Below are positions 4,105-36,365 of a DNA stretch of 36,365 nucleotides, in pieces (the first letter of the stretch is position 1; every line of letters starts with the position of its first letter). The DNA is from Acidobacteria bacterium RBG_13_68_16. Its GTDB lineage: Bacteria > Acidobacteriota > Thermoanaerobaculia > Thermoanaerobaculales > Thermoanaerobaculaceae. The notes under the pieces are model-generated. The model was not told the DNA's origin. It made no database searches and saw only the letters and a program-made list of their open reading frames with translations. The translations under genes and the position numbers were made by a program. The stretch lies in the NCBI GenBank assembly GCA_001766905.1, contig MEKI01000130.1:1-36365 (forward strand). The letters are read 5' to 3'.

Positions 4105-4611
4105 ATGAAGATCACCGCGACCGAGGAATACGGGATGCGCTGCATGTTGCAGCTCGCGCTCCACCACGGCGAGATCGTCCCTCTCTCCGAATTGGCAGGG
4201 ACCGAGGGGATCGCGCCGCCCTTTGCGGCCAAGGTGCTTCTTGGGCTTCGACGGGCCGGCCTGGTCGTGGCGACCCGCGGACGCAACGGCGGGTACGCGC
4301 TGGCAGCGCCCCCAGAGCAGATCACGGTCCTGCGAATCCTCAAGGCCCTCGGCAAGCCGCTTTTCGACTCGACGTTTTGCCGCGAGCACGGCAGTCCCGA
4401 CGCGACGGACTGCTCGCGGCTGACCGACTGCTCCCTGCGGCCGGTGTGGGCGCACCTCGACGCCCTGCTGAGGCGCTTCTTCGAGCAGACGACGCTGGCC
4501 GACCTTGCAGCCGGGGAACGCCGAACCGACCGACACCTGCAGGAGCGATGGTTGCTCACCGTGCCCGGTGGCTGGGGCGAGAGCACCGTCGCCAAGAGAG
4601 GAACCCAATGA
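4105..4611 (+). CDS. Rrf2-family Fe-S sensing transcriptional regulator of suf
   Basis: A 168-residue Rrf2/IscR-type repressor. The N-terminal winged helix begins [12 protein letters not shown] and includes the wing [10 protein letters not shown] (58-67). Three cysteines, Cys92, Cys103 and Cys109, in the FC...[14 protein letters not shown] region are the expected Fe-S cluster ligands; the first spacing is longer than in E. coli IscR. It probably senses cluster status and controls the Suf operon it heads. The ATG at 4105 follows GAGGAG; its stop overlaps the sufC start in ATGA. The C-terminal 50 residues are longer and more arginine-rich than usual and may be disordered. Confidence 0.9.
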
Positions 4612-5372
4612 GCGATTCTTCACAGCCCGTTTTCTCGTGCAAAGATGTGCACGTTTGGATCGCCGACAAAGAGGTCGTGAAAGGTGTCGACCTCGAGATC
4701 TCGGCCGGCGAGATCCACGCCATCATGGGGCCCAACGGCTCAGGGAAGTCCACGCTCGCCAACGCCCTGATGGGGCATCCCGCGTACACCCTCGAGGGCA
4801 CCGTCAAGCTCGCCGGCGAGGACGTGACCTCGCTCTCACCCGACGAGAAGGCCCGCAAGGGGATGTTCCTCGCCTTCCAGTACCCGGTGGCGGTGCCGGG
4901 GGTGACCGTGGCGTCGTTTCTCCGAGCGGCCGTGTCCGCGGTACGCGGCACCGAGACGCCGGTGCGGGAGTTCCGCAAGGAGCTGCTCTCCCGCATGGAG
5001 GACCTCGCGATGGACCCGGCGTTTGCCGGACGCTACCTCAACGACGGCTTCTCGGGTGGCGAGAAGAAGCGCCTCGAGATCCTGCAGCTGCTCATGCTCA
5101 AGCCCCGCTTTGCCTTGCTCGATGAGACCGACTCGGGCCTCGACATCGACGCGCTCAAGGTGGTGGCCGAAGGCATCAACGCCGCGGCCTCGCAGGACGT
5201 CGGGATGGTGCTGGTCACCCACTACCAGCGCCTGCTCAACTACGTGCGCCCGCACGTGGTGCACGTCTTCATGGACGGCCGCATCGTGCGCACCGGCGGG
5301 CCCGAGCTCGCACTCGAGCTCGAGGAGCGCGGCTACGACTGGCTCGAGCCCGCCGCCGCGGGAGGTGTGTGA
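4608..5372 (+). CDS. sufC: SufC, Fe-S assembly ATPase
   Basis: A 254-residue soluble ABC-type ATPase that energises the SufBCD scaffold complex. Walker [10 protein letters not shown] is at 41-49, the Q-loop in LAFQYP near 91, the signature FSGGEKKR at about 148-155 and Walker [12 protein letters not shown] at 169-179, followed by the H-loop LVTHYQR. The DETDSGLD form is diagnostic of SufC. Length is normal. It overlaps the regulator's stop codon by 4 bases and its own stop overlaps sufB by 1 base, so translation is coupled. Confidence 0.97.
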
Positions 5373-6790
5373 TGGCTTCGACACCCAAAGTTGCCGACAT
5401 CGGCACGGACTACGGCCAGCGCTACGGCTTCCACGACCCCGAAGAGTACTTCATGCGCACGCCCAAGGGCCTCTCCCACGAGGTCGTGGAGGCGATCTCG
5501 CGCCTGAAGAAGGAGCCGGAGTGGATGCGCGAGTTCCGCCATAAGGCGCTCGACATATTCCTCGCGAAGCCGATGCCCACGTGGGGCGATACCCAGATGC
5601 TCTCGGAGATCGACTTCGACGATATCACCTACTACGTTCGCGCCACAGAGAAGCAGGAGACGAGCTGGGAGGACGTCCCCGAGAACGTCAAGCGCACCTT
5701 CGACCGGCTCGGCATCCCCGAGGCGGAGCGCAAGTTCCTCGCCGGCGTGTCGGCGCAGTACGAGTCCGAGGTGGTCTACCACTCCGTGAAGGAGGAGCTG
5801 ACCAAGCAGGGCGTGATCTTTCTCGACATGGACTCCGGGCTGCGCGAGCACGAGGAGCTCGTGCGCAAGCACTTCGCCACCGTGATTCCCATCGCTGACA
5901 ACAAGTTCGCAGCGCTCAACAGCGCGGTGTGGTCGGGCGGCTCGTTCATCTACGTGCCGAAGAACACCGAGGTGGCGATCCCCCTCCAGGCGTACTTCCG
6001 CATCAACGCCGAGCGCATGGGTCAGTTCGAGCGCACGCTCATCATCGCCGACGAGGGCGCCAAGGTGCACTACATCGAGGGTTGCACGGCCCCCGTGTAC
6101 TCCACGAACTCGCTGCATTCCGCGGTCGTGGAGCTGATCGCCATGAAGGGCGCCCGCATCCGGTACACGACGATCCAGAACTGGTCCAACAACATCTACA
6201 ACCTGGTGACCAAGCGCGCGGTGGCCTGGGAGGACGCGGTGGTCGAGTGGGTGGACGGCAACCTTGGCTCCAAGCTCACCATGAAGTACCCGGCCGTGAT
6301 CCTGAAGGGCGAGCGAGCCCACGGCGAGGTGCTCTCGATCGCGTTCGCCGGTCCCGGCCAGCATCAGGACGCCGGTGCCAAGATGACGCATCTGGCACCC
6401 AATACGACCTCCAAGATCACCTCCAAATCGATCTCAAAGGGCACTGGCCGCGCCACGTACCGCGGTCTGGTCAAGGTGCGCAAGGGGGCGTCCGGATGCA
6501 AGACCTCCGTGCAGTGCGACGCCCTGCTCATCGGAGAGGCGGCCCGTACGGACACCTACCCGACGATGGAGATCGCCGAGGATCAGGTTCGGGTCGAGCA
6601 CGAGGCCCGCGTCTCCAAGCTCGGGGACGAGCAGCTCTTCTACCTGCGCTCTCGCGGCCTCAAGGACGACCAGGCGCGGCTGATGATCGTCAACGGCTTC
6701 ATCGAGCCGTTCGTCAAGGAGCTCCCGATGGAGTACGCGGTGGAGCTGAACCGCCTCATCGAGCTGGAGATGGAGGGCTCTGTTGGCTAG
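5372..6790 (+). CDS. sufB: SufB, Fe-S scaffold protein
   Basis: A 472-residue scaffold subunit on which clusters are built with SufC and SufD. Diagnostic segments include [26 protein letters not shown], the beta-helix core and the C-terminal [22 protein letters not shown] with SELPMEYA-like ending [16 protein letters not shown]. The position equivalent to E. coli SufB Cys405 reads LIGEAARTD here, without cysteine, as I recall for Bacillus-type SufB; this fits the SufU partner. The ATG at 5372 follows GGGAGGTGTG; an in-frame GTG just upstream is less likely. The stop overlaps sufD by 8 bases. Confidence 0.96.
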
Positions 6791-8060
6791 CCGTCCCACG
6801 AGCGAGCCGTCTCCCCCGACGCTCCCGCTCGAGCACCTCGCTGAGCTCTCGAGCGCCGCCGGTGAGGACCGCGCCCTCCTGGCCCTGCGCAATCAGGCCC
6901 GCGAGTCGCTCACGCCGCTGCTCCTCCCCGACCGGGCACGCCACCTGTGGCGCTATACCGACCCGACCCGTTTCCTGCCGGACACCGACCCGACCGACCT
7001 GACGCCCACCGACGTGGGCCCCACGTGGCGTCTCGAGGAGCCGCTGTCCGTGGCCGGTCTGCTGGCCGGAGGGGCGTTGCGCGTCGTGGAAGTGGACGCC
7101 CACGCGCGCAAGGCTGGCGTGGTTGTGGAAGACCTGCACACGGCACAGGCAAGCGAGTTTTTGGGCAAGGCCGTGTCAGAAAGCCACGGGTTCGTCGAAG
7201 CGATCAACACGGCGGCATGGCGCGGGGGCGTGCTGGTGCGCGTGCCGGCCGGCATCGAGCTCGAGCACCCGATCCGCCTGCGCATCGTGGCCGGCCCCTT
7301 GACCGTCCCCCGCGTGCTGGTGGTGGCCGGTGAGGGCAGCTCGTTCGAGATCATCGAGGGGCACGTAGGGGGCGACGGGTCGAGGGGCAAGGTCCTCGGC
7401 GTCACAGAGATCTTCGCCGAGAGTCGCGCCAACGTACGCTACGGCTTGGTGCAGCGCTGGGACCCGGGCGTGGTCGGACACCTCACCACACGGGCACGCG
7501 TCGCTGCAGGAGCCCGCTTCCAAATGTCGTTGGCCTCGTTCGGGGGCAGCACCTTCAAGGCCGACGTGGGCGCGATCCTCGCCGGCGAGGGCGCCGAGGT
7601 CGAGACCACCGGAGTGGCGATGGGCGGCGACGAGCAGCACTTCGACCACCACACCGAGCACATCCACGAGGCAGGAAAGACCCTGTCCAACCTCGACTTC
7701 AAGGTGGCACTCACCCACGCGGCCCGCTCTGCCTACACCGGGATGATCCGGATCGCCCGCCACGCGGGCGGAAGCGAGGCGTACCAGGAGAACCGCAACC
7801 TGCTGCTCTCCCACGACGCGCGGGCCGAATCGATCCCCGAGCTCGAGATCCTCACCGACGACGTACGCTGCTCGCACGGTGCTACCGTGGCCCCCATCGA
7901 TCCCGAGCAGCTCTTCTACCTCCAAAGTCGGGGCCTGGCGAACCTCCAGGCGATGCGGGTGATCGTGTACGGTTTCCTGGACCAGACCCTGGCGCGCTTG
8001 CCGCAGACGACCCGGGAGCGGATCGAGGCACTGGTGGCCGCGCGGTTGCACACGGAGTGA
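6783..8060 (+). CDS. sufD: SufD, Fe-S scaffold partner
   Basis: A 425-residue SufB paralogue that completes the SufBC2D complex. It shares the beta-helix core ([17 protein letters not shown]) and the conserved ending, with [47 protein letters not shown] and a short C-terminal helix. The histidine in CSHGAT matches the SufD residue implicated in cluster formation. It uses a TTG start at 6783, supported by GGAGGG 5 bases upstream and the 8-base overlap with sufB. The rare start may lower SufD output relative to SufB. Confidence 0.94.
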
Positions 8061-8062
8061 CG

Positions 8063-9316
8063 ATGACTGCGACCGCCCCCCCTCGCACGACGCTCGACCC
8101 CAGCGCACTGCGGGCGCGCTTCCCCATCCTGCAGCGGCAGGTGCACGGCCACCCGCTCGTCTACCTGGACAACGCCGCGACGACGCAGAAACCGGAGACG
8201 GTGCTTGCCGCGATCCAGCGCTACTATTCCACCTCCAACGCCAACGTGCACCGCGGGGTGCACACGCTGGCGGAGGAGGCGACCGCGGCCTATGAGGCGT
8301 GCCGGTCCCGTGTGGCCCGCTTCGTGAACGCCCCCGACGAGCGTGGAGTGATCATCGTCCGCAACGCTACCGAGGCACTCAACCTGGTGGCACGTGCGTG
8401 GGGTGCGACGCTCACTGCGGGGGACGAGGTGTTGCTCTCCGAGATGGAGCACCACTCGAACCTCGTCCCCTGGATCCTCCTCGCGCGCGAGCGTGGGGTC
8501 GTGCTGCGCCACCTCCCGATCACGGACTCGGGTGAACTCGACATGGCGGCGCTGCCCGGGATGCTGTCGCGCCGCACGCAGGTTGTTGCGCTCACCGCGA
8601 TGTCCAACGTGCTCGGGACCATCAACCCGATCGCCGAACTGACCGAGGCGGCCCACCGGGTCGGCGCGGTCATGGTGGTGGACGCGGCGCAGTCCGTTCC
8701 GCACATGCCGGTGGACTTCCAGGCTCTTGGCATCGACTTCCTGGCGTTCTCGGCCCATAAGGCGTACGGACCCACCGGCGTTGGGTTCCTGGTCGCGAAG
8801 CCGGAGCTCTTGGAGCGGATGGAGCCGATCAGCGGTGGAGGCGAGATGATCCGGGCCGTTCACCTCGACTCGGCCACCTGGAACGACATCCCTCACAGGT
8901 TCGAGGCCGGCACCCCCAACATTGCCGACGCCGCAGCGTTCCCGGCCGCCCTCGACCTGCTGGAGGAGCTGGGCATGGACGCGGTGCGGGCACACGAGCA
9001 CGACCTTGTCCGGTACGCCCTCGAGCGCCTGCGCTCGCTGGGGTGGCTCGAGCTGCACGGACCGCTTGATCCAGCCAGGCGCGGCGGTCTGGTCTCTTTC
9101 GTGGACCCCGAGATCCACCCCCACGACCTGGCCCAAGTCCTGGACACCCGCGGCATCGCCATCCGCGCCGGCCACCACTGCGCCCAGCCGCTGATGCGCC
9201 GGCTCGACGTCGCGGCGACGGCTCGTGCCTCCTTCGCCGTCTACAATGACCGCGACGAGGTGGATGCGCTCGTTGACGGCCTGATGGCCGCGAGGAAGTA
9301 CTTTGGGGTGGCGTGA
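8063..9316 (+). CDS. sufS: SufS, type II cysteine desulfurase
   Basis: A 417-residue PLP enzyme that takes sulfur from L-cysteine and passes it as a persulfide to SufU. The PLP lysine is Lys233 in FSAHKAYGPTGVGF and the catalytic cysteine is Cys373 in RAGHHCAQPLM, the type II context. The YLDNAATTQKP opening is standard. ATG 8063 is preferred over GTG 8057 because GGAG lies 5 bases ahead; it begins 2 bases after the sufD stop. Downstream the operon is interrupted by a 154-bp repeat-bearing gap before sufU. Confidence 0.96.
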   Translation: MTATAPPRTTLDPSALRARFPILQRQVHGHPLVYLDNAATTQKPETVLAAIQRYYSTSNANVHRGVHTLAEEATAAYEACRSRVARFVNAPDERGVIIVRNATEALNLVARAWGATLTAGDEVLLSEMEHHSNLVPWILLARERGVVLRHLPITDSGELDMAALPGMLSRRTQVVALTAMSNVLGTINPIAELTEAAHRVGAVMVVDAAQSVPHMPVDFQALGIDFLAFSAHKAYGPTGVGFLVAKPELLERMEPISGGGEMIRAVHLDSATWNDIPHRFEAGTPNIADAAAFPAALDLLEELGMDAVRAHEHDLVRYALERLRSLGWLELHGPLDPARRGGLVSFVDPEIHPHDLAQVLDTRGIAIRAGHHCAQPLMRRLDVAATARASFAVYNDRDEVDALVDGLMAARKYFGVA

Positions 9317-10865: not shown

Positions 10866-11609
10866 ATGTACGGGGCGCAGCGCAACACGCTGGCGGTGGC
10901 CCTGCAGAGCCAGGTCTTCGAGGGCGTCGCCAGGGTTCTCCGTGCCAACCAGTTCCATGCCGAGTACGAGGCGACGGCCACAACCGCCCTGGAAACGACC
11001 GGCCTCCTTGCCTTCGACGCGATTCTGGCCGGTTACCCCCTGCCCGACATGCCCATGCAGGCGTTCCTCGACGCGGTGCGCAGGGAGGACTCCCCATGCC
11101 GCTCGGCGGGGCTCATCCTGCTGGTCGGCCAGGACGCTCTCGAGGAGACCCAGCGCTTCGTGGGCCGGGGTGCCAACCGCGTCCTGACGGTGGAGGAGTT
11201 CATGGCGCGGCTGCCTCACGTTCTCCTCCGCCTGCTCGAAGTTCCACCACGCGTCGCGGTTCGGCGCAATCTGCGCCTCAAAGTGTCGCTCTCGCCGAGC
11301 AGCACCCACGTCACCTGCCAAAGCGAAAACATCTCCACCACCGGCATGCTGGTCAGGACCGACCGCAGCTACCCGATCGGCACCCAACTGGGGTTCGAAA
11401 TGGCGCTGCCGGGGGACAGCTCGCCGGTGCGTGGCTACGCGGTGGTCGTTCGCCACACCATGGCGGATCGCGAGCCGGTGAGCGGCTTTGCCGTCCAGTT
11501 CGCGTCGTTCTCGGGCGAGGACAAGGTGCGCTTCGAGACCCTCCTCCGCAGGCTCTTAAGCTCCTCCGATTCCTCCGAGGCGCAGGTGCAGCTCGCACCC
11601 CGCGAGTAG
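10866..11609 (+). CDS. Receiver-like/PilZ two-domain protein, copy 1
   Basis: A 247-residue cytoplasmic protein. Residues 1-125 look like a response-regulator receiver fold, but the phosphoacceptor aspartate is replaced: the segment FDAILAGYPLPDMP (50-63) has Gly56 where LLD would be expected, so phosphorylation is unlikely. Residues 130-235 form a PilZ domain with both c-di-GMP motifs, RRNLR (133-137) and NISTTG (155-160). It should bind c-di-GMP and relay it through the receiver-like part. A gap-free paralogue over the first 160 residues is at 14061-14759. The tail after 230 is serine/glutamate rich. Confidence 0.85.
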   Translation: MYGAQRNTLAVALQSQVFEGVARVLRANQFHAEYEATATTALETTGLLAFDAILAGYPLPDMPMQAFLDAVRREDSPCRSAGLILLVGQDALEETQRFVGRGANRVLTVEEFMARLPHVLLRLLEVPPRVAVRRNLRLKVSLSPSSTHVTCQSENISTTGMLVRTDRSYPIGTQLGFEMALPGDSSPVRGYAVVVRHTMADREPVSGFAVQFASFSGEDKVRFETLLRRLLSSSDSSEAQVQLAPRE

Positions 11610-13207: not shown

Positions 13208-14038
13208 ATGGAGCAGCTCAATCTTGTACTGAGTATTCCCCAGGGTGCGATCACCGTCACCAACCTGGGTATCGAGGGATTTGCCTGGCACCGCCGGCCC
13301 GGGTCCGGCAAGTACTTCCTGGGCCGCACGATCTTCTTCGACCTCGCGCTCTCCAACGGCCGGCCGGACTTCACCTACCTCGACGAGGGTGGCTGGCGAG
13401 ACGCAATGACTGACACTCTCAACGCGCTCCACGCCATGGTCCCCGGCAAGCGCACCAAGACCGCTCTTTCAAACAACGCCTTCTCATGTACGCCCATCGA
13501 CGCGTACCGCCGTTGCTTCCTGGGCAAGACCGGCGGTCAGATAATGGGGATGGAGCGCGCGGGCGAGGTGGCACACTTCGCCGCCAGCGACTGCCACGAG
13601 GGCATGACTCCAGATGAGGTGGCTGGCGCGATAGGGCAGCCAAGACAGGCTGCTCGCCACCCACGTCTCTACCTGGTGTTCTGCCCGGTGGAGTTCATCG
13701 TGCTGTCCAGCCTCACCCCGCCTGAGTACGCCTGGTACTCCACCCACCGGCCCGGCAAGATCTTCCGTCAGGTGCTCTTCACCGAGCTCCGGGCGGACCA
13801 GACCAGCCTGGCCGCGGAAAACCTCTTCCAACAGGCACGTCAGGAGTTCCAGGAGAGCCCCGGCAAGAAGACCAAGACGATCGTGTCCGCGGATTGTATC
13901 AACCGGGTGCCTTTCCAGGCCTGGGTGGGCTACAACCGCGAGGCGGAGGGTGGCATCTACGCCGGCGACAAGACACGCGTGAGCTTGTGGCGTTTCCCCG
14001 CGGAGATCCCGCACGCATGGGAGCGTGCCGAGGGGTAG
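13208..14038 (+). CDS. Unknown protein built from a tandem duplication
   Basis: A 276-residue soluble protein with no family I recognise. Its two halves are related: residues 4-110 align with 154-249. The shared landmarks are LNLVLSIP / LYLVFCPV, EGFAWHRRPG / PEYAWYSTHRPG, TIFFDLAL / QVLFTELRA and, most clearly, PGKRTKTALS (79-88) / PGKKTKTIVS (218-227), then IDAYRRC / FQAWVGY. Between them is a linker with cysteine and histidine (ASDCHEGMTPDEVAG). There is no signal peptide or membrane segment. The ATG at 13208 has AGGAGAGGGG. It is followed after 22 bp by the second receiver-like/PilZ gene, so the two are probably cotranscribed and may work together. Confidence 0.8.
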   Translation: MEQLNLVLSIPQGAITVTNLGIEGFAWHRRPGSGKYFLGRTIFFDLALSNGRPDFTYLDEGGWRDAMTDTLNALHAMVPGKRTKTALSNNAFSCTPIDAYRRCFLGKTGGQIMGMERAGEVAHFAASDCHEGMTPDEVAGAIGQPRQAARHPRLYLVFCPVEFIVLSSLTPPEYAWYSTHRPGKIFRQVLFTELRADQTSLAAENLFQQARQEFQESPGKKTKTIVSADCINRVPFQAWVGYNREAEGGIYAGDKTRVSLWRFPAEIPHAWERAEG

Positions 14039-14060
14039 GCGGACCGGGAGGTCAGCGCGC

Positions 14061-14759
14061 ATGTACGGGGTGCAACGGAGCACGCTGGTAGTCGGGCTGG
14101 AGGACCGGGTCTTCCAGAAGGTCGCGTCCGTCCTCTCCGCCGCCAAGTTCTACGCAGACTACGGGGAGACTGCCGCAACCGCGCTGGAGTCAATTGCGTT
14201 CCTCCCGTTCGATGCCATCGTTGCCGGCTACCCTCTTCCCGACATGCCGATGACCCAGTTCCTCGGCGCCGTGCGCAAGAAGGACTCGCCCTGCCGCCAG
14301 GCCGCCCTCGTCCTGTTGGCGCCCAAGGGTATGCTCGCCGAGGCCGAGGACTTTGTGGGCAAGGGTGCCAACAGGGCGCTGGCCATCGAAGACTTCCCCG
14401 AGCAGCTCCCCCATGTGCTATTCCGCCTGCTCGAGGTGCCGCCCCGGTTCGCCATGCGGGCCACGTCGCGCCTGAAGGTGCAGCTCTCCTGGGGCACCAC
14501 TCAGACCATCTGCCAGACCGAGAACGTTTCCGCCCATGGCATGCTGATCAAGACCGACCATACCTACCCGATCGGCACCCAGATGAGCTTTGAGCTGACG
14601 ATGCCGGGCGACAACAACCCGATCCGGGGATTCGCCGTGGTCGTCCGCCACACCATGGAGAAGCGCGAGCGCGTGACCGGCGTCGCGGTGCGCTTCTCCT
14701 CCTTTGGCGGTGACGACAAGAGGCGGTTCGAAACGCTCCTCGCCAAGATCATGAAGTGA
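14061..14759 (+). CDS. Receiver-like/PilZ two-domain protein, copy 2
   Basis: A 232-residue paralogue of the protein at 10866-11609, colinear without gaps for at least 160 residues and sharing MYG.QR.TL at the start, AGYPLPDMPM (55-64) and HVL.RLLEVPPR. As in copy 1, Gly56 replaces the phosphoacceptor aspartate. The PilZ motifs are RATSR (133-137) and NVSAHG (155-160), so c-di-GMP binding should be intact. GGGAGG precedes the ATG at 14061 with long spacing. It follows the tandem-duplicated unknown gene in one operon and converges on the metallopeptidase gene 24 bp downstream. Confidence 0.85.
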   Translation: MYGVQRSTLVVGLEDRVFQKVASVLSAAKFYADYGETAATALESIAFLPFDAIVAGYPLPDMPMTQFLGAVRKKDSPCRQAALVLLAPKGMLAEAEDFVGKGANRALAIEDFPEQLPHVLFRLLEVPPRFAMRATSRLKVQLSWGTTQTICQTENVSAHGMLIKTDHTYPIGTQMSFELTMPGDNNPIRGFAVVVRHTMEKRERVTGVAVRFSSFGGDDKRRFETLLAKIMK

Positions 14760-23303: not shown

Positions 23304-24386
23304 ATGAACAGAAGGCGTTTGGGTTTCATGACAGTGGTTTCCCTGCTCGTCCTGGCGACCCACGCCACCCTGGCCGGCCAGGCGGCGCAAGCGCCGCTCC
23401 CAAACGTCGTGATCCTCGCCACAGGGGGGACCATCGCCGGCACCGGCACGACCAGCACGACGACCGTCGGCTACGCCGTAGCGACCGTCGGTGTGCAGTC
23501 CCTGATCGACGCTGTGCCGGAACTGAAGAGGATCGCAATGGTCCGCGGCGAGCAGGTGTTCCAGATCGCCAGCGAGAACATGACCTGCGACCACTGGCTG
23601 AAGCTGGGGAGAAGGGTGAACGAGCTGCTTGCGCAAGACGAGGTGGACGGCATCGTGATCACCCACGGCACCGACACCCTGGAGGAGACGGCATACTTCC
23701 TCAACCTGGCGGTCACTAGCGCCAAACCGGTCGTGCTGGTCGGCGCGATGCGCCCCTCCACCGCCCTCAGTGCCGACGGCCCCATGAACCTCTACGACGC
23801 CGTTTCGCTGGCCGGGAGCCGGGAGGCGGTCGGCCGGGGCGTGCTGGTTTGCATGAACGACCAGATCAACGGCGCCCGCGACGTGACCAAGACCAACACC
23901 TCCGACCTCGGCACCTTTCGCTCTAGAGAGCTCGGGCCCCTCGGCTCCATGCGGGCAGGAAGGCCGGCCTTCTACCGCACGTCCACCCGTCGGCACACGA
24001 CCCAGAGCGAGTTCGACATTCGGGAGATCAGGGAGTTGCCGCGTGTGGGGATCGTCTACGGCTACGCTGACTACGGCTCAGCCGTTATCGAGGCCTTAAC
24101 CGCCGCAGGGGTGAAGGGGATCGTCCACGCCGGGGTCGGCAACGGCAGCGTCTCCCTCGACGCAAGGCCCGCCCTCGTGGCGGCCCGCGTCAAGGGCATC
24201 GTCGTGGTGCGGTCCAGTCGGGTCGGGAGCGGGGCTGTGGCCCGCAACGGCGAGGTCAACGACGACGCGTTCGACTTCGTGGTAGCCGACGACCTCACCC
24301 CCCAGAAGGCCCGCATCCTGCTCGCGCTCGCGCTAACCAAGACAGTCGACACCCGCGAGATCCAGAGGATGTTCAACCAGTACTGA
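23304..24386 (+). CDS. ansB: Secreted type II L-asparaginase
   Basis: A 360-residue periplasmic asparaginase that hydrolyses asparagine to aspartate and ammonia. A signal peptide (about 1-24) precedes VVILATGGTIAGTG, with Thr43 the nucleophile; the second catalytic region is VITHGTDTLEETAYFL (118-133), holding Thr123 and Asp124. VGAMRPSTALSADGPMNLYDAV is also diagnostic. Length is normal. The ATG at 23304 follows CGAGGAGG upstream. It is convergent with the EamA exporter only 8 bp away. Confidence 0.95.
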   Translation: MNRRRLGFMTVVSLLVLATHATLAGQAAQAPLPNVVILATGGTIAGTGTTSTTTVGYAVATVGVQSLIDAVPELKRIAMVRGEQVFQIASENMTCDHWLKLGRRVNELLAQDEVDGIVITHGTDTLEETAYFLNLAVTSAKPVVLVGAMRPSTALSADGPMNLYDAVSLAGSREAVGRGVLVCMNDQINGARDVTKTNTSDLGTFRSRELGPLGSMRAGRPAFYRTSTRRHTTQSEFDIREIRELPRVGIVYGYADYGSAVIEALTAAGVKGIVHAGVGNGSVSLDARPALVAARVKGIVVVRSSRVGSGAVARNGEVNDDAFDFVVADDLTPQKARILLALALTKTVDTREIQRMFNQY

Positions 24387-30225: not shown

Positions 30226-32550
30226 CTACCTCGCGAGCTCAACCAGCCGCTTGGCTGCGGCCTCGGTGGACCCGATGGCCATGTTCAGCATGACCACCTT
30301 GGTGGCGCCAAAGAGGCGCTCGTGCTGGGCGCGCAGCAGGTCCGACCTCGAGCTGTCCAGGCCGGCCAGGTGCGGGTTCACAAAAGCGAACGTCTTGCCG
30401 GTGGCCCCGGGGAGCTGTCCAGAGGCCAGGGTGCGGGCGGCCTCACGCGCCGGCACGTCCTGCATCAGCGGCAGCACGGGGTCCTTGGCGAGCAACACGC
30501 AGAGCCGCGGCGCGGTGCGGCGCGCGTGACGCGACGCGCCGCCGAGCCAGTAGGGGTCGAGCATGATGCGGCCGTTCTTGGAGGCCTCGAGGCACACCGC
30601 GGCGCCGCGGTCGAGCGGGCACTCGTCGTTGGGGTGGTCCACGGTGCAGCTATCGCGGGAAACCACCATGTTCTCGAGCTTGGAGCGCTCGAGGAGTTTC
30701 TCGATCTCGGGGAACTTTCCCACCCATTTGGCTTTGAGGTACAGCTTGCGCTCGACGAGGTCGGCCACCGGCTCGGAGGAAGCCAGGCGCACTAGGACCG
30801 TGTCGTTGCTCACCAGGCGTACGCCTTCCTCCCGCATGATGGCTGCCAGCAGCCCCGTGCGCCCCGAGCCCGGCCCGCCCCAGATCAACACACCGTTGCC
30901 GTTGACGTCGAGGCCGGCGCAGTGGGCCAGCAGGGCCCCGGAGGTGCGCGCGGCTGACTCGGCCGCCAGCTGGAGGGTCAGTGAGCGAACCTGGCCGTAG
31001 AACGCGGTGTTGAAGACAAACGCGGTGGAGGTCTCGGCGCTCACAAGCCCGGAGGCCTCGCGGCCGGGGACGTCCTTGACCGCGTACACCACGGCGTGCG
31101 GCTCCAGGTCCCCCTCCAACGGGGCGGGGTAGAAGTTCTCCTGGTAGAAGTCGGCGAGGTGCGGGGAGTTGGTGCGCAGCTGCACCACGATGCCGGCGAC
31201 CGCCGCGTTCCATTCGAAGTAGGCATCAGGGGAGAGATGCGCGGCAGCCTCGTCGAGGAGCGCGTTGCGGGCCTCGAGACCGACCACCGGTCGGGTTTCC
31301 GCGTAGGTCGCCACCTTGGTGACCACGTTGTTGAGGGCGCGCGGCCGCAGCCGACGCGGCTCCTCGAGGCGGGAGAGCGCCTGGCCGATGCGACGACACC
31401 CTTCCTCGATGCGCTCCATCGAGGTGGCGAAGGCGATTCGCACGTGTTCGTCGGTGCCGAACGCCTCGCCCGGCACGACGGCGACATGCGCCTCCTTCAG
31501 GAGGTAGTACGAGAGACCGTAGGTGTTGCGAATCGGTGCGCCGCCGAACTCCCTGTCCAGGTAGCGGGTGACGTTTGGCATGACGTAGAAGGCGCCCGAC
31601 GGCGAGAAGCAGGAGACGTTGGGCAGCGAGCGCAGGCGGTAGACGATCGCGTTGCGCCGCCGCTCGAACTCCTGCCGCATGCGCTCCACCTCCATGCTGC
31701 AGTCGCGCAGCGCGACCAGGGCTGCCTTCTGCACGAACGACGTCGCGTTGGAGGTGTTGTGGGACTGGATCTTGGAACAAGCGGCCACGATCTCGCGAGG
31801 CCCCGCGGCGTAGCCCAGGCGCCAGCCGGTCATCGAGAACGCCTTGGAGAAGCCGTTGATCACCACGGTCAGCTTCTTGATCTTCTCGTTGAGTGAGGCG
31901 ATCGAGGTGTAGCGCTGGCCGTCGTAGAGCAGCTTCTCGTAGATCTCGTCCGAGATCACCCAGATCTGCTCCCGCACGCACACCTCGGCGATCTCCTCCA
32001 GTTGCTCGCGGCTGTACGTTGCGCCGGTCGGGTTGCACGGGAAGTTGAGGATCAGCGCCTTGGTGTTGGGGGTGATGGCGGCGGCCAGGTCGCGCGCCTG
32101 CAAGCGGAACCCGTCCTCTTCCCTGGTGGGCACGTAGACCGGGTTGGCCCCGGCGACCTTCACCTGATCGGGGTAGGACACCCAGTACGGGGCGGGGATG
32201 AGGACGTCATCCCCCTCCTCGTAGAGCGCCATCGCCACGTTGAAGAGGGAGTTTTTGGCGCCGACCGAGACGATCACCTCGTCGGGCGAGTAGTGGAGGT
32301 TGTTCTCGTGCTCGAGCTTCTCACAGATGGCCTTCCTCAGCTCGGGGATGCCGTCGTTGGCCGTGTACTTGGTGAAGTTGGCATCGAGGGCGGCCTTCGC
32401 GGCGCGCTTGACGGCCTCCGGCGTCGGGAAGTCCGGCTCGCCGACCGAGAAGTCCACGACGTCGATGCCCTGCGCGCTCATCTGAGTCGCGCGCGCGTTG
32501 ATCCGTAGCGTCGGGGAAAGCGTTATGCGGTTGGAGCGTTCGGAGAGCAT
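30226..32550 (-). CDS. Class I aminotransferase fused to an HprK/PEPCK-like P-loop domain
   Basis: A 774-residue protein. Residues 1-396 are a complete aspartate-aminotransferase-type enzyme: NPTGATYS (173-180), ISDEIYEKL (199-207), the PLP lysine Lys236 in INGFSKAFSMTGWRLGY, and Arg371 in HVRIAFA for substrate carboxylate. The usual stop is replaced by RLEEPRRLRPR and about 375 more residues. In that part, GGPGSGRTG (558-566) is a P-loop with arginine in place of the lysine, followed by RLVSNDTVLVRL (578-589), which aligns with the HPr-kinase segment LVADD. The context FRTNSP-like LRTNSPHLADFY (458-469) also recalls HprK-related kinases. Arginine in the P-loop and ND for DD suggest altered or lost catalysis. 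It follows the flotillin gene by 36 bp. Confidence 0.85.
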   Translation of the reverse strand: MLSERSNRITLSPTLRINARATQMSAQGIDVVDFSVGEPDFPTPEAVKRAAKAALDANFTKYTANDGIPELRKAICEKLEHENNLHYSPDEVIVSVGAKNSLFNVAMALYEEGDDVLIPAPYWVSYPDQVKVAGANPVYVPTREEDGFRLQARDLAAAITPNTKALILNFPCNPTGATYSREQLEEIAEVCVREQIWVISDEIYEKLLYDGQRYTSIASLNEKIKKLTVVINGFSKAFSMTGWRLGYAAGPREIVAACSKIQSHNTSNATSFVQKAALVALRDCSMEVERMRQEFERRRNAIVYRLRSLPNVSCFSPSGAFYVMPNVTRYLDREFGGAPIRNTYGLSYYLLKEAHVAVVPGEAFGTDEHVRIAFATSMERIEEGCRRIGQALSRLEEPRRLRPRALNNVVTKVATYAETRPVVGLEARNALLDEAAAHLSPDAYFEWNAAVAGIVVQLRTNSPHLADFYQENFYPAPLEGDLEPHAVVYAVKDVPGREASGLVSAETSTAFVFNTAFYGQVRSLTLQLAAESAARTSGALLAHCAGLDVNGNGVLIWGGPGSGRTGLLAAIMREEGVRLVSNDTVLVRLASSEPVADLVERKLYLKAKWVGKFPEIEKLLERSKLENMVVSRDSCTVDHPNDECPLDRGAAVCLEASKNGRIMLDPYWLGGASRHARRTAPRLCVLLAKDPVLPLMQDVPAREAARTLASGQLPGATGKTFAFVNPHLAGLDSSRSDLLRAQHERLFGATKVVMLNMAIGSTEAAAKRLVELAR

Positions 32551-32586: not shown

Positions 32587-33975
32587 TCACTTCTCGCTCT
32601 CGCTCTTCTTGCCGCGCTTGAGGACCTCCTCGAGCTTCAAACCCGTCAGCGACTCCACGACGCCCGGGAGCTGTGCCAGAACCTTCGCCACCTGCCCGGT
32701 GAGCTTGGAGGCGCCGTCCGCGTCGCCGACCATCACGATCTTGTCCACCTTCGACAGGGGCTCGGAGATAGCCTTGGCGAGCTCCGGCAGCTGCTTGATG
32801 ACCATCTCGGTGAGTCCCGCGTTGGTGTACTCCTTCCACGCCTGTGCCTTTTGCCGCATTGCGTCGGCCTCGGCTTTGCCCCGCGCGCTGATCGCCTCGG
32901 CCTCCGCGCCGCCGTACAGACGGATGCCAGCGGCCTTGCCCTTGGCTTCCAGCTCCTTCTGGTACGCGTCGGTCTCGGCCTCCAGCTTGGCCTGATAGTG
33001 CATCGCCTCCGCAGGACGCTTCACCGTGGCCTCGAGCTCCTTCTCGCGACGCACGATCTCCTGCTCCTCCACCTTTGCAGCCAGCTCCTTCTCGGCGAGC
33101 CGCACCGCGTACTCCTGACGCTTGAGCTCCTCCGAGAGCTTGGCGCGCTCGAGGTCGTAGGCGATGTCCGCCTTCGCACGCTTTGCGTTGACGGCCGACT
33201 GGAACTCGGCGCGCTGCATCTCGAAATCGCGTGTCGCCTTGGCGAGCTCGGCCTCGGCCGCTAGACGCGCGATGTCACCCTCCTTGCGGTATTCGGAGGC
33301 CTGGATCGCGGAGTCGCGCTCCGTCTCGGCCTGCGCCAGAGCGGCGTCGCGTTTGACCTCGGCGATGCGGCGGGCGCCCAGCGCCTGCAGGTAACCCTGG
33401 GAGTCGGAGATGTCCTTGAGGGAAAACGCCAGCAGCTCGAGGCCGAGGCGGTTGAAGTCTTCGCCCGCGGTCTGGCGCACGCGCTCGGCAAACGTGTCAC
33501 GCTCGGTGTAGATCTCCTCCACCTTCATCATCCCGAGGGTCGCCCTCATGTGGCCCTCGAGGACTTCCTGGGCAACCGAGCTGATGCCCGAAGAGCCCTT
33601 CGAGAGAAAGTTCTCGACCGCGCGGTGGAGCAGGGGCTCCTCACTCGCCGCTTTCACCTGGCCGAACGCCTCGGCGGAGATCATCACGCCCTGCGCGGTG
33701 AGCACCTCCGGGCAGCGCACCGAGATCGAAAAGACCTCGAGTGGAAGCATGTCGACCGTTTCCACGAACGGCATCACGAACGTGCCGCCCCCGACTCGCA
33801 GGCGGTAGCCGACCTCGCGCTCCCGGCCGTCCATCTCGGTCACGGTGGACGTCCGGCCCGAGATGACCAGCACCTGATTGGGGCCCACCTTGCGATAGTT
33901 GAAGGCCCACAGGCCGAAGAACAGCAGGACAACGACGAGAACGACGGCGCCGACGATCCAGGGGAGCAACGCCAT
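32587..33975 (-). CDS. Flotillin-like SPFH/band 7 membrane scaffold protein
   Basis: A 462-residue protein with an N-terminal membrane segment (about 5-27), an SPFH domain (about 30-190: NYRKVGPNQVLVISGR, EGHMRATLGMMKVEEIYTERDTFAERV) and a long alanine/glutamate-rich coiled coil (200-385) with repeated AEAE, KAEADAMRQKAQA motifs, then a small C-terminal domain. This is the flotillin layout, and such proteins organise membrane microdomains. The ATG at 33975 has GGAGG 7 bases upstream. The usual NfeD partner is not adjacent; instead it heads a probable two-gene unit with the aminotransferase fusion. Confidence 0.9.
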   Translation of the reverse strand: MALLPWIVGAVVLVVVLLFFGLWAFNYRKVGPNQVLVISGRTSTVTEMDGREREVGYRLRVGGGTFVMPFVETVDMLPLEVFSISVRCPEVLTAQGVMISAEAFGQVKAASEEPLLHRAVENFLSKGSSGISSVAQEVLEGHMRATLGMMKVEEIYTERDTFAERVRQTAGEDFNRLGLELLAFSLKDISDSQGYLQALGARRIAEVKRDAALAQAETERDSAIQASEYRKEGDIARLAAEAELAKATRDFEMQRAEFQSAVNAKRAKADIAYDLERAKLSEELKRQEYAVRLAEKELAAKVEEQEIVRREKELEATVKRPAEAMHYQAKLEAETDAYQKELEAKGKAAGIRLYGGAEAEAISARGKAEADAMRQKAQAWKEYTNAGLTEMVIKQLPELAKAISEPLSKVDKIVMVGDADGASKLTGQVAKVLAQLPGVVESLTGLKLEEVLKRGKKSESEK

Positions 33976-34039: not shown

Positions 34040-34186
34040 GCCTTTCTTGCCCCTGGTGCTTGCCGCCCTTCCAAAGACGCTGACAAGACCTGTTGAACGG
34101 TTTCGTGACGACCGGGAGGGGGAAGCCAATCCGCCAGGCGGGTGCGAGCGGGGGCGAGCAAGCGACGAGAGGCCGCGCACGCGCCG

Positions 34187-34330
34187 GGCAAAACAAAAAC
34201 CTCACGCGGTGAAAAGAGAAGAGCGACGGCTCCCGGCCCGCGGGGCACAACAAAAGCCACGCAGTGAAAACAAGACACCACGCGGCCACCCCGGCAAGAA
34301 AAGAAAGCGCCGCGCCGTGCAGAAAAAGGA
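34187..34330. repeat. Degenerate threefold A-rich repeat in a 407-base gene-free stretch
   Basis: Between the flotillin start and the phosphatase start (33976-34382) no gene is seen apart from the flotillin promoter. Three related units of about 35 bases begin at 34187, 34244 and 34293. Units 1 and 2 share GGCAnAACAAAA, CACGCnGTGAAAA and AAGA; unit 3 is looser (GGCAAGAAAAGAAAGCGC, GTGCAGAAAAAGG). Spacing is 57 and 49 bases. Each of the first two has a short CAC-GCN-GTG hairpin. The stretch stays open in a frame continuous with the phosphatase, but its lysine/arginine-rich product looks non-native. Confidence 0.5.
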
Positions 34331-34359
34331 GCAGGGGTGTGGGGCCGGAGGCCCCAGCG

Positions 34360-34365
34360 TATACT
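34360..34365 (+). promoter_or_regulatory. -10 element TATACT of the histidine phosphatase gene
   Basis: TATACT lies 18 bases before the GTG at 34383. The predicted leader of about 11 bases still includes GGAGG at 34373-34377. Confidence 0.5.
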
Positions 34366-34382
34366 GCGCGGCCGGAGGGGGC

Positions 34383-34949
34383 GTGGAGATCCTGGAGCTT
34401 TGGCTGGTGCGCCACGGGGAAACGACCTGCAGCCGCGACGGCATTCTCGCGGGCTGGAACGACGTGCCCCTCACCGAGAAGGGGGAGGCCCAGGCTGAGG
34501 CGGTTCGTCCGGTGCTGGATGGATCGCCGTTCGAGGGCGTCTGGAGCTCGGACCTGCGGCGCGCCATCCGTACCGCGCTGCTGGCTTGGGGTCAGCCCGT
34601 GGCCGACCCGCGCCTGCGCGAGATCAACTTCGGCGAGCTCGAGGGAACGAGATGGGAGACCCTCGAGGTGGTGCACAAGAAGGCGCTCATCGACTTCGAT
34701 GCCTTCAACCCACCTGGCGGCGAGACCCTCGAGCAGCTGCGTGAGCGGGTCGCGGGGTTCCTCTCCGAGTTGCGCCCCGGTCGCCACCTGCTGTTCACCC
34801 ACGGCGGGGTGATCCGCCTTCTCACTCGCGAGGTCGGCCACGACGGCTTTGTGCCGACCGGCACGGTGGTTGCTCTCGATTGGGCCCACCGCGCGCTGCT
34901 GTTCAAGCGTGAGTCCCCGATCCCGGGACCGATGCCCTTCGCGACGTAG
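34383..34949 (+). CDS. Histidine phosphatase superfamily protein (phosphoglycerate-mutase-like)
   Basis: A 188-residue phosphatase. The phosphohistidine motif LVRHGET is at 8-14 (His11 accepts the phosphate), SSDLRRAIRTA follows, and the second catalytic histidine lies in LLFTHGGVIRLL. The family includes cofactor-dependent mutases, alpha-ribazole phosphatase (CobC) and broad phosphatases; its short length and the REINFGELEG segment fit the CobC/GpmB branch without proving the substrate. GTG 34383 is chosen with GGAGGGGG upstream; the in-frame extension to the left is rich in basic residues and unlike the family. Confidence 0.85.
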   Translation: MEILELWLVRHGETTCSRDGILAGWNDVPLTEKGEAQAEAVRPVLDGSPFEGVWSSDLRRAIRTALLAWGQPVADPRLREINFGELEGTRWETLEVVHKKALIDFDAFNPPGGETLEQLRERVAGFLSELRPGRHLLFTHGGVIRLLTREVGHDGFVPTGTVVALDWAHRALLFKRESPIPGPMPFAT

Positions 34950-35135: not shown

Positions 35136-35165
35136 TTGCTCTTTCGAGTCACAAGCGGCTATGCT
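35136..35165 (+). promoter_or_regulatory. Promoter TTGCTC-18-TATGCT for the PEPCK-like gene
   Basis: TTGCTC (35136-35141) and TATGCT (35160-35165) have an 18-base spacer. A start near 35172 gives a leader of about 28 bases containing GACGAGG before the ATG at 35200, and rules out the in-frame ATG at 35161. Confidence 0.45.
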
Positions 35166-35199
35166 CGCGGCAGGCGCCACGGCGCCCGACGAGGTGCGT

Positions 35200-36365
35200 A
35201 TGCCTGCCGGCCCGTACGATCCCGACGTCTACCGTCGCTTTGCGGAGAATCTGCGCAGCGCGCTCTCCGGGCCCAACATCGAGCGCCCCTCGATGCGCGC
35301 GCTGCGCAAGAAGGCCCTCGCGACCAGCCTGGAGACCGCCAACGGTTCGCACGTGTGGTTCTCCGCCATCTCCTCGCGCATGGCGGCCAAGACCGTATAT
35401 CTCGGGAACGGTCCGGAGATAGTCCTGCCCAAACCAAGTTCCGAGCAGTTGGGCCTCGTCGAGAAGGCACCCGAGCAGCTCCACAAGGTGCTGCAGCTCC
35501 TGCGCACGATGCCGTTCGTGCACGTGCGCCGGCAGATGGGCCACAACAAGGAGTTCAACCCGATCTGCAACCTCTACGTGTGTGTGGCCGACCCCAAGCA
35601 CTACCGCCTGGCCTACCAGTGGGCGATGACCATGGGGGAGGTCAGAAAGCGCCACCCGGGCCCCGAGTTCATCATGATCGACGTGCCCCAGGAGCACCCG
35701 CTACGGATGCAGATCCTCACGATCCCGGAGCACGACATCAACATCGCCCTCGGCACCGACTACACCGGCGAATGCAAGAAAGGTTTCCTCAGGCAGGGGA
35801 TGTTTCGGGCCGATCAGCGCGGAATGCTGGGCCTGCACGCCGGCACCAAAGTCGTGCGCGCCCGCGACAAGGCATCGGGCAAGCTCAAAACGTACGGCGT
35901 GTTCATGTTCGGGCTCACCGCCACCGGCAAGTCCACCTGGTCGTGCCACCAGCTCGGCCTCGAGGCCGAGCAGGGCGAGGGGACGTGGGTGGCGCAGGAC
36001 GACATCGTGTTCCTCAAGCGCGACGGCTCCGCCCTCGGCACCGAGCTCGGGTTCTACGTCAAGACCGACGTGGAGCAGAAGCTGCAGGAGGCGATGTACC
36101 ACGCCCTCACCCACCGCTCGGCGCTGCTCGAAAATCTCATGATCAACGCCAAGGGAGAGATCGACTTCCTGGACGAGCGCCTGGGCGAGAACGGCCGCGG
36201 CGTGCTCGACCGGCGCGAGCTCAAGGTGAGCCGCGGCGGCAAGCTGGTCTCCATCTGCGCCGATTCGATCAATCTGCCGCCGTTGGACGAGCTGGACGGG
36301 GTGGTGTTTGCGTTCATCACCCGCCGCGGCACGATCATGCCGTTCGCCCAACGCCTCTCCCCGGA
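35200..36365 (+). CDS. Divergent ATP-type PEP carboxykinase-like protein, 3' end missing
   Basis: 388 codons are visible; the gene runs off the right edge. PEP carboxykinase makes phosphoenolpyruvate from oxaloacetate. The family segment TDYTGECKKGFLRQGMF carries the lysine pair of the active site (E. coli GEMKKG), and the P-loop is FGLTATGKSTW where normal enzymes have GLSGTGKTT. The kinase-2 region reads WVAQDDIVFL in place of the usual IGDDEHGW, so this is a distant branch. The N-terminal 150 residues (HVRRQMGHNKEFNPICNLYV, WAMTMGEVRKRHPGPEF) also differ. ATG 35200 is supported by GAGG 5 bases upstream. It may be a true enzyme or a related kinase. Confidence 0.75.
   Translation, partial: MPAGPYDPDVYRRFAENLRSALSGPNIERPSMRALRKKALATSLETANGSHVWFSAISSRMAAKTVYLGNGPEIVLPKPSSEQLGLVEKAPEQLHKVLQLLRTMPFVHVRRQMGHNKEFNPICNLYVCVADPKHYRLAYQWAMTMGEVRKRHPGPEFIMIDVPQEHPLRMQILTIPEHDINIALGTDYTGECKKGFLRQGMFRADQRGMLGLHAGTKVVRARDKASGKLKTYGVFMFGLTATGKSTWSCHQLGLEAEQGEGTWVAQDDIVFLKRDGSALGTELGFYVKTDVEQKLQEAMYHALTHRSALLENLMINAKGEIDFLDERLGENGRGVLDRRELKVSRGGKLVSICADSINLPPLDELDGVVFAFITRRGTIMPFAQRLSP

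Follow-up and report, generated by a model that had tools for sequence, protein, structure and literature searches.

The conversion of aspartate to oxaloacetate and on to PEP proceeds through two consecutive reactions in the PEPCK-type C4 cycle and in other couples of aspartate aminotransferase (AAT) and PEPCK, where the two steps reside in separate enzymes. At the locus analysed here, which would serve the same two reactions, the AAT is instead fused to an apparent pseudo-PEPCK and co-encoded with a flotillin. Each half has described relatives of its own. The class I(beta) aspartate and prephenate aminotransferases of Thermus, Rhizobium and plants are alike over the N-terminal 395 residues, with all hallmark residues in place, however none carries the C-terminal domain (hereafter X), neither the PDB relatives found nor the AATs of 15 unfused loci. 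X in turn has its overall fold in common with the ATP-PEPCKs (PF01293; E. coli, T. thermophilus and T. cruzi), from which it differs by its shorter length, a Cys/His insert and its covalent attachment to an aminotransferase, and it is similar to HPr kinase/phosphorylase and the HprK-related kinases A/B (PF07475, TIGR00679, TIGR04352, TIGR04355) in the P-loop segment only. We found no description of the fusion (AAT::X), the pseudo-PEPCK or the flotillin linkage in a full-text literature search that covered few subscription journals; this is an absence of hits and no proof of novelty.

An unbroken fusion frame across bacterial phyla

The window, i.e. the entire 36,365-nucleotide stretch of DNA analysed (contig MEKI01000130.1 of Acidobacteria bacterium RBG_13_68_16), holds the fusion gene at 30226..32550. 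It is encoded on the minus strand, which the first-pass annotation had overlooked, as a single frame of 774 residues running from ATG to TAG; the plus strand over the same positions contains five stops. As that annotation had proposed, the frame is open throughout the junction between AAT and X at residue 397 (base 31362). A frameshift or lost stop near 31362 was excluded by the uninterrupted frame in 38 independent contigs and in 15 genomes of the same family or class, the window's own counted, with frames of 692-802 residues (the 692-residue form is cut by the contig start). Since the same unbroken frame and architecture recur across independent genomes, the fusion is genuine and not an assembly or frameshift artefact; it is also old.

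The N-terminal domain (residues 1-395; 31366..32550, minus strand) had been recognized as a complete class I aminotransferase with Lys236 and Arg371. Congruently, PF00155 (Aminotran_1_2) matches residues 30-388 with an E value of 4e-80 (270 bits against a cut-off of 19.7), and the PLP lysine K236 and the substrate arginine R371 are invariant in 31 fusions. The nearest PDB relatives are Rhizobium AatA/AatB, 1j32, Thermus AspAT and plant AAT/PAT. Judged from its sequence the domain is a class I aspartate aminotransferase, and by analogy with the nearest solved relatives the fusion would act on aspartate and 2-oxoglutarate.

Among 84,980 species genomes scanned, 39 loci had a frame that could be used (one more was a short fragment), and 38 of the 39 carry AAT::X, distributed over about ten bacterial phyla. 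By the names in the record titles, mostly of MAGs, the hosts belong to Acidobacteriota (including Thermoanaerobaculum and Holophagales), Latescibacterota, KSB1, Calditrichota, Myxococcota, Zixibacteria, Fischerbacteria, Caldisericota and Bacteroidota/Ignavibacteria, together with one gammaproteobacterial MAG. Within the window's own phylum, X was detected in 30 of 247 sampled genomes and is fused in all 30 (frames of 769-799 residues, one with a single internal TAA). The same fusion is thereby present in 38 public contigs and 30 genomes of the phylum sample, a broad spread that the first-pass annotation had missed along with the flotillin partner and the archaeal fusion of X to PEPCK described below.

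Fold and residues of domain X

Domain X occupies residues 397-774 (378 residues; 30229..31362, minus strand). No family in Pfam or NCBIfam covers it, and no PEPCK profile (PF01293 or NF0068xx) matches it up to an E value of 1. An AlphaFold2 model built with 32 natural sequences has high confidence (pLDDT 91.5, pTM 0.90), and the best 50 PDB fold matches to it are all PEPCKs, the ATP-type first and the GTP-type next, with E values down to 1e-18. The TM score to PEPCK is about 0.70 of the query, with the PEPCK fold spanning nearly all of X. In addition, hhalign of the X profile against the neighbouring PEPCK family aligned 203 columns (E 6e-7 in one comparison), bringing the P-loop, the kinase-2 Asp, E-x-x-Y and E-N into register. 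Because the top fold matches are exclusively PEPCKs and the profile aligns with the neighbouring PEPCKs, X is homologous to PEPCK and some 150 residues shorter. The relationship had to be established by profile and fold comparison, as direct BLASTP of X against the PEPCK part of the same protein, at the archaeal locus L067, gives a weak match (E 0.017).

The C-terminal part had initially been placed in the PEPCK/HprK superfamily and described as HPr-kinase-like. The superfamily membership is borne out; the HPr kinase likeness persists as a local resemblance around the P-loop and does not extend to the domain as a whole, which has the PEPCK fold over its full length. HprK-type profiles match a segment of about 50 residues from the P-loop start (E 5e-7 to 2e-3 for PF07475, TIGR00679, TIGR04352 and TIGR04355), reaching 17-29 bits against curated cut-offs of 33-240 and staying below every one of them (TIGR00679 21 versus 240 bits; PF07475 18 versus 33 bits). 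With no HprK among the best 50 PDB fold matches and scores this far below the cut-offs, an HprK identity is ruled out. AAA/RuvB-like matches to X are limited to the P-loop. In a model of the full-length fusion (pLDDT 88, pTM 0.56) two well-folded domains have an undefined mutual orientation and the linker at 401-403 is of low confidence, a prediction consistent with domains that are independent of each other, as would be expected for a tethered module.

The P-loop GGPGSGRTG is located at residues 558-566 (30853..30879, minus strand) and the RLVSNDTVLVRL segment at 577-588, both as first reported. The position of the Walker-A Lys (K254 in E. coli) is Arg564 in the window; across 32 X domains it is Lys in 14, Arg in 15 and Gly, Met or Val in three. 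The arginine P-loop noted earlier is consequently correct for the window and a lineage feature rather than a defining trait. Similarly, the His232 position is His in 15 domains, the window's included, Arg in 15 and another residue in two. None of the 32 has a Lys in the stretch aligned with PEPCK K212/K213, the Mn-ligand lysine region, K213 being assigned by equal spacing between two anchors and not by superposition. Thus, compared with the ATP-PEPCKs, X lacks a Lys in the K213 region throughout and is variable at the P-loop Lys and His232. These losses argue that X is a degenerate PEPCK from which the catalytic metal and phosphate ligands have disappeared, congruent with the initial suspicion that the C-terminal part is probably not catalytic.

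Other positions are newly conserved in X, namely ERK (600-602) and DPxWLGG (665-671), and conserved polar positions comprise R64, H69, D72, E76, H90, R102, D188 and E205-R206-K207 (A2 numbering). A candidate metal-binding knuckle, C-x3-H-x4-C-x8-C, recognized as a sequence pattern only, is found at residues 635-653 (30592..30648, minus strand). Of the 32 X domains, 24 have the whole pattern C-x3/4-[CH]-x4/5-C-x8-C, which is conserved in most bacterial X domains, lost in some lineages and absent from archaeal L067; the Bacteroidota/Ignavibacteria loci have Ser in place of its fourth Cys. It may represent a possible zinc or iron-sulphur site.

Gene neighbours and archaeal counterparts

Upstream of the fusion, on the same minus strand, lies a flotillin/SPFH (FloT-like) gene at 32587..33972 (PF01145 E 7e-26, NF058507 E 1e-99), the frame of which is readable back to 34281, with homology beginning at 33972. 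Wherever the upstream sequence reaches far enough (36 loci), the gene immediately before the fusion, in the same orientation, is a flotillin, with 44-92% identity to the window gene across phyla. It is also found beside the fusion in further genomes of the phylum and is retained at fusion loci without PEPCK, and no flotillin adjoins any of the 15 AAT relatives that are unfused. In an all-against-all comparison of open reading frames at 25 loci, the only recurring gene families were the fusion, flotillin and PEPCK, with other recurrent frames being shadow frames or stemming from close relatives. Between flotillin and PEPCK the window has a histidine-phosphatase (phosphoglycerate-mutase-like) gene (34047-34949, plus strand), and such a gene adjoins flotillin elsewhere in L030, L031 and L036 only.

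The PEPCK-type gene that the first-pass annotation had spotted 2.6 kb from the fusion is real and relevant. It encodes a divergent ATP-type PEPCK (35161..36363, plus strand; PF01293 E 2e-24, NF006821 213 bits), is divergently oriented relative to the fusion and breaks off where the contig ends, at 36365. Complete genes of this subtype score about 265-285 bits against NF006821 (cut-off 369). The divergent PEPCK adjoins the fusion in 22 loci, in 10 of them downstream at 19-91 bp and in 12 divergently oriented beyond flotillin. Nine catalytic positions (the equivalents of R65, K212, K213, H232, K254, D268, D269, K288 and R333) are invariant in all 18 neighbouring PEPCKs checked, and the subfamily therefore appears catalytically complete, the window copy being truncated.

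The association extends to whole genomes. In the phylum sample the divergent PEPCK is present in 18 of 30 fusion genomes versus 2 of 217 others (Fisher p 1.5e-17); close relatives with the fusion have the divergent subtype only, and those without it have a canonical PEPCK (NF006821 mostly 400-590 bits) or none. The remaining 12 fusion genomes are without the divergent form, and 9 of 10 tested encode a GTP-PEPCK away from the fusion gene (G118, G148, G199, G206, G214, G241, G249, G275 and G280); in G176 neither type was seen. The fusion thus persists with a distant GTP-PEPCK, which argues against a strict dependence of X on a neighbouring PEPCK. Across 16 loci the distances for AAT, for X and for PEPCK are mutually correlated (Mantel r 0.85-0.93), with X diverging about twice as fast as AAT or PEPCK, as a non-catalytic partner might.

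At the 39th locus of the scan, L067 from a Helarchaeota MAG, X lies at the N-terminal end of a PEPCK frame instead of behind an AAT. This arrangement, X::PEPCK, occurs in six archaeal genomes of the L067 phylum, five of them with complete proteins of 895-908 residues (L067:1550-4231; L095:6041-8758; L096:5915-8629; L098:901-3585; L099:6007-8730) and the sixth, L097, cut by the contig end. The archaeal X::PEPCK loci examined showed no adjacent flotillin. With AAT::X in bacteria and X::PEPCK in archaea, X is therefore joined to the producer of oxaloacetate in the one case and to its consumer in the other. Six further archaeal genomes of that phylum harbour short standalone X-like proteins, one a fragment; those at L090:5940-7115, L091:5899-6885, L092:5737-6717, L093:5686-6666 and L094:5917-6891 have about 325-390 residues and 22-28% identity to X, and the flanking sequence retrieved around them contains no gene for AAT, flotillin or PEPCK.

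Elsewhere in the window, an asparaginase-like gene (23304-24386, plus strand), the product of which begins with a signal-like segment, lies about 6 kb from the fusion and would feed aspartate. A SUF iron-sulphur assembly cluster (SufC, SufB, SufD and SufS-like frames, the translations being recognized by eye) is found at 4377-9316 on the plus strand. Two similar plus-strand proteins, at 10866-11609 and 14025-14759, starting MYGAQRNTLAVAL and MYGVQRSTLVVGL, respectively, appear to be paralogues in which a PilZ-like part comes after a receiver-like one.

Possible roles of X

The conserved AAT::X beside flotillin and PEPCK suggests an undescribed device coupling two steps of central metabolism. 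We place at about even chances the proposal that X is a non-catalytic adaptor coupling AAT to PEPCK, perhaps on a flotillin platform. The AAT part would interconvert aspartate and 2-oxoglutarate with oxaloacetate and glutamate, while X, a PEPCK descendant probably without catalysis, would bring the transaminase to a real PEPCK, which would interconvert oxaloacetate and ATP with PEP, CO2 and ADP. Oxaloacetate would in this manner be made and consumed in one assembly, for which the co-encoded flotillin would be the membrane platform. The two fusions, the fold, the loss of catalytic residues, the gene linkage and the co-occurrence are observed; that X docks on PEPCK, that oxaloacetate is channelled and that flotillin takes part is what we infer from them. 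The more specific form, a flotillin-scaffolded metabolon where X (fused to AAT in bacteria and to PEPCK in Asgard archaea) makes a heteromeric complex with PEPCK and oxaloacetate passes directly from one active site to the other, is tentative and clearly short of even chances. Several observations speak against an adaptor: the fusion genomes with a GTP-PEPCK encoded elsewhere and G176 with neither type, the two genomes having the divergent PEPCK without the fusion, the standalone X-like proteins of archaea, and a flotillin linkage that is tighter than the PEPCK linkage in bacteria, yet unseen in the archaeal loci examined.

The main rival is a ligand-sensing role, which we judge unlikely on balance. 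Here X would be an allosteric sensor that adjusts the activity of the attached AAT without contacting PEPCK, its pseudo-active site having kept the ability to bind a nucleotide, PEP or oxaloacetate. Pseudoenzyme sensors are common, and the complete PEPCK fold with its conserved polar positions would suit such a task; the persistence of X where PEPCK is of the GTP type and encoded elsewhere keeps the idea alive. Sensing alone, however, does not explain why X is fused to PEPCK in archaea, or why its gene is tightly linked to, and co-occurs with, a single PEPCK subfamily, and the Walker-A Lys of X is not conserved.

It is improbable that X serves mainly as a flotillin-binding anchor placing AAT in a membrane microdomain, with the PEPCK linkage being secondary. 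Flotillin is indeed the most constant neighbour (36 of 36), is kept in loci without PEPCK and is missing beside unfused AATs, but the archaeal X::PEPCK loci have no flotillin alongside, and X adopts the fold of PEPCK rather than any known membrane-anchor domain. Also improbable, and disfavoured by residue loss, is an active PEPCK or an enzyme with changed chemistry, i.e. a kinase or phosphotransferase making the protein bifunctional: the P-loop glycines are kept, the second kinase-2 Asp is retained in 30 of 32 domains and some lineages (L053, L054) have an intact GKST P-loop, yet the Walker-A Lys is replaced in 18 of 32, the K212/K213-region Lys is missing in every row, the H232 position is His in fewer than half and X changes at roughly double the rate of its neighbours. 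Chance read-through or an assembly error joining two ordinary genes has a negligible probability and is ruled out, as dozens of independent assemblies from about ten phyla share the uninterrupted fusion.

Automatic annotation, as an aminotransferase or as 'HPr kinase-like', conceals this conserved module in many uncultured phyla. The locus adds a widespread, unnamed family of putative pseudo-PEPCKs and links three genes, those of flotillin, aspartate aminotransferase and PEPCK, between which we found no earlier connection. Furthermore, two questions could be addressed with it in concrete terms, namely whether oxaloacetate channelling exists and which clients bacterial flotillins organise.
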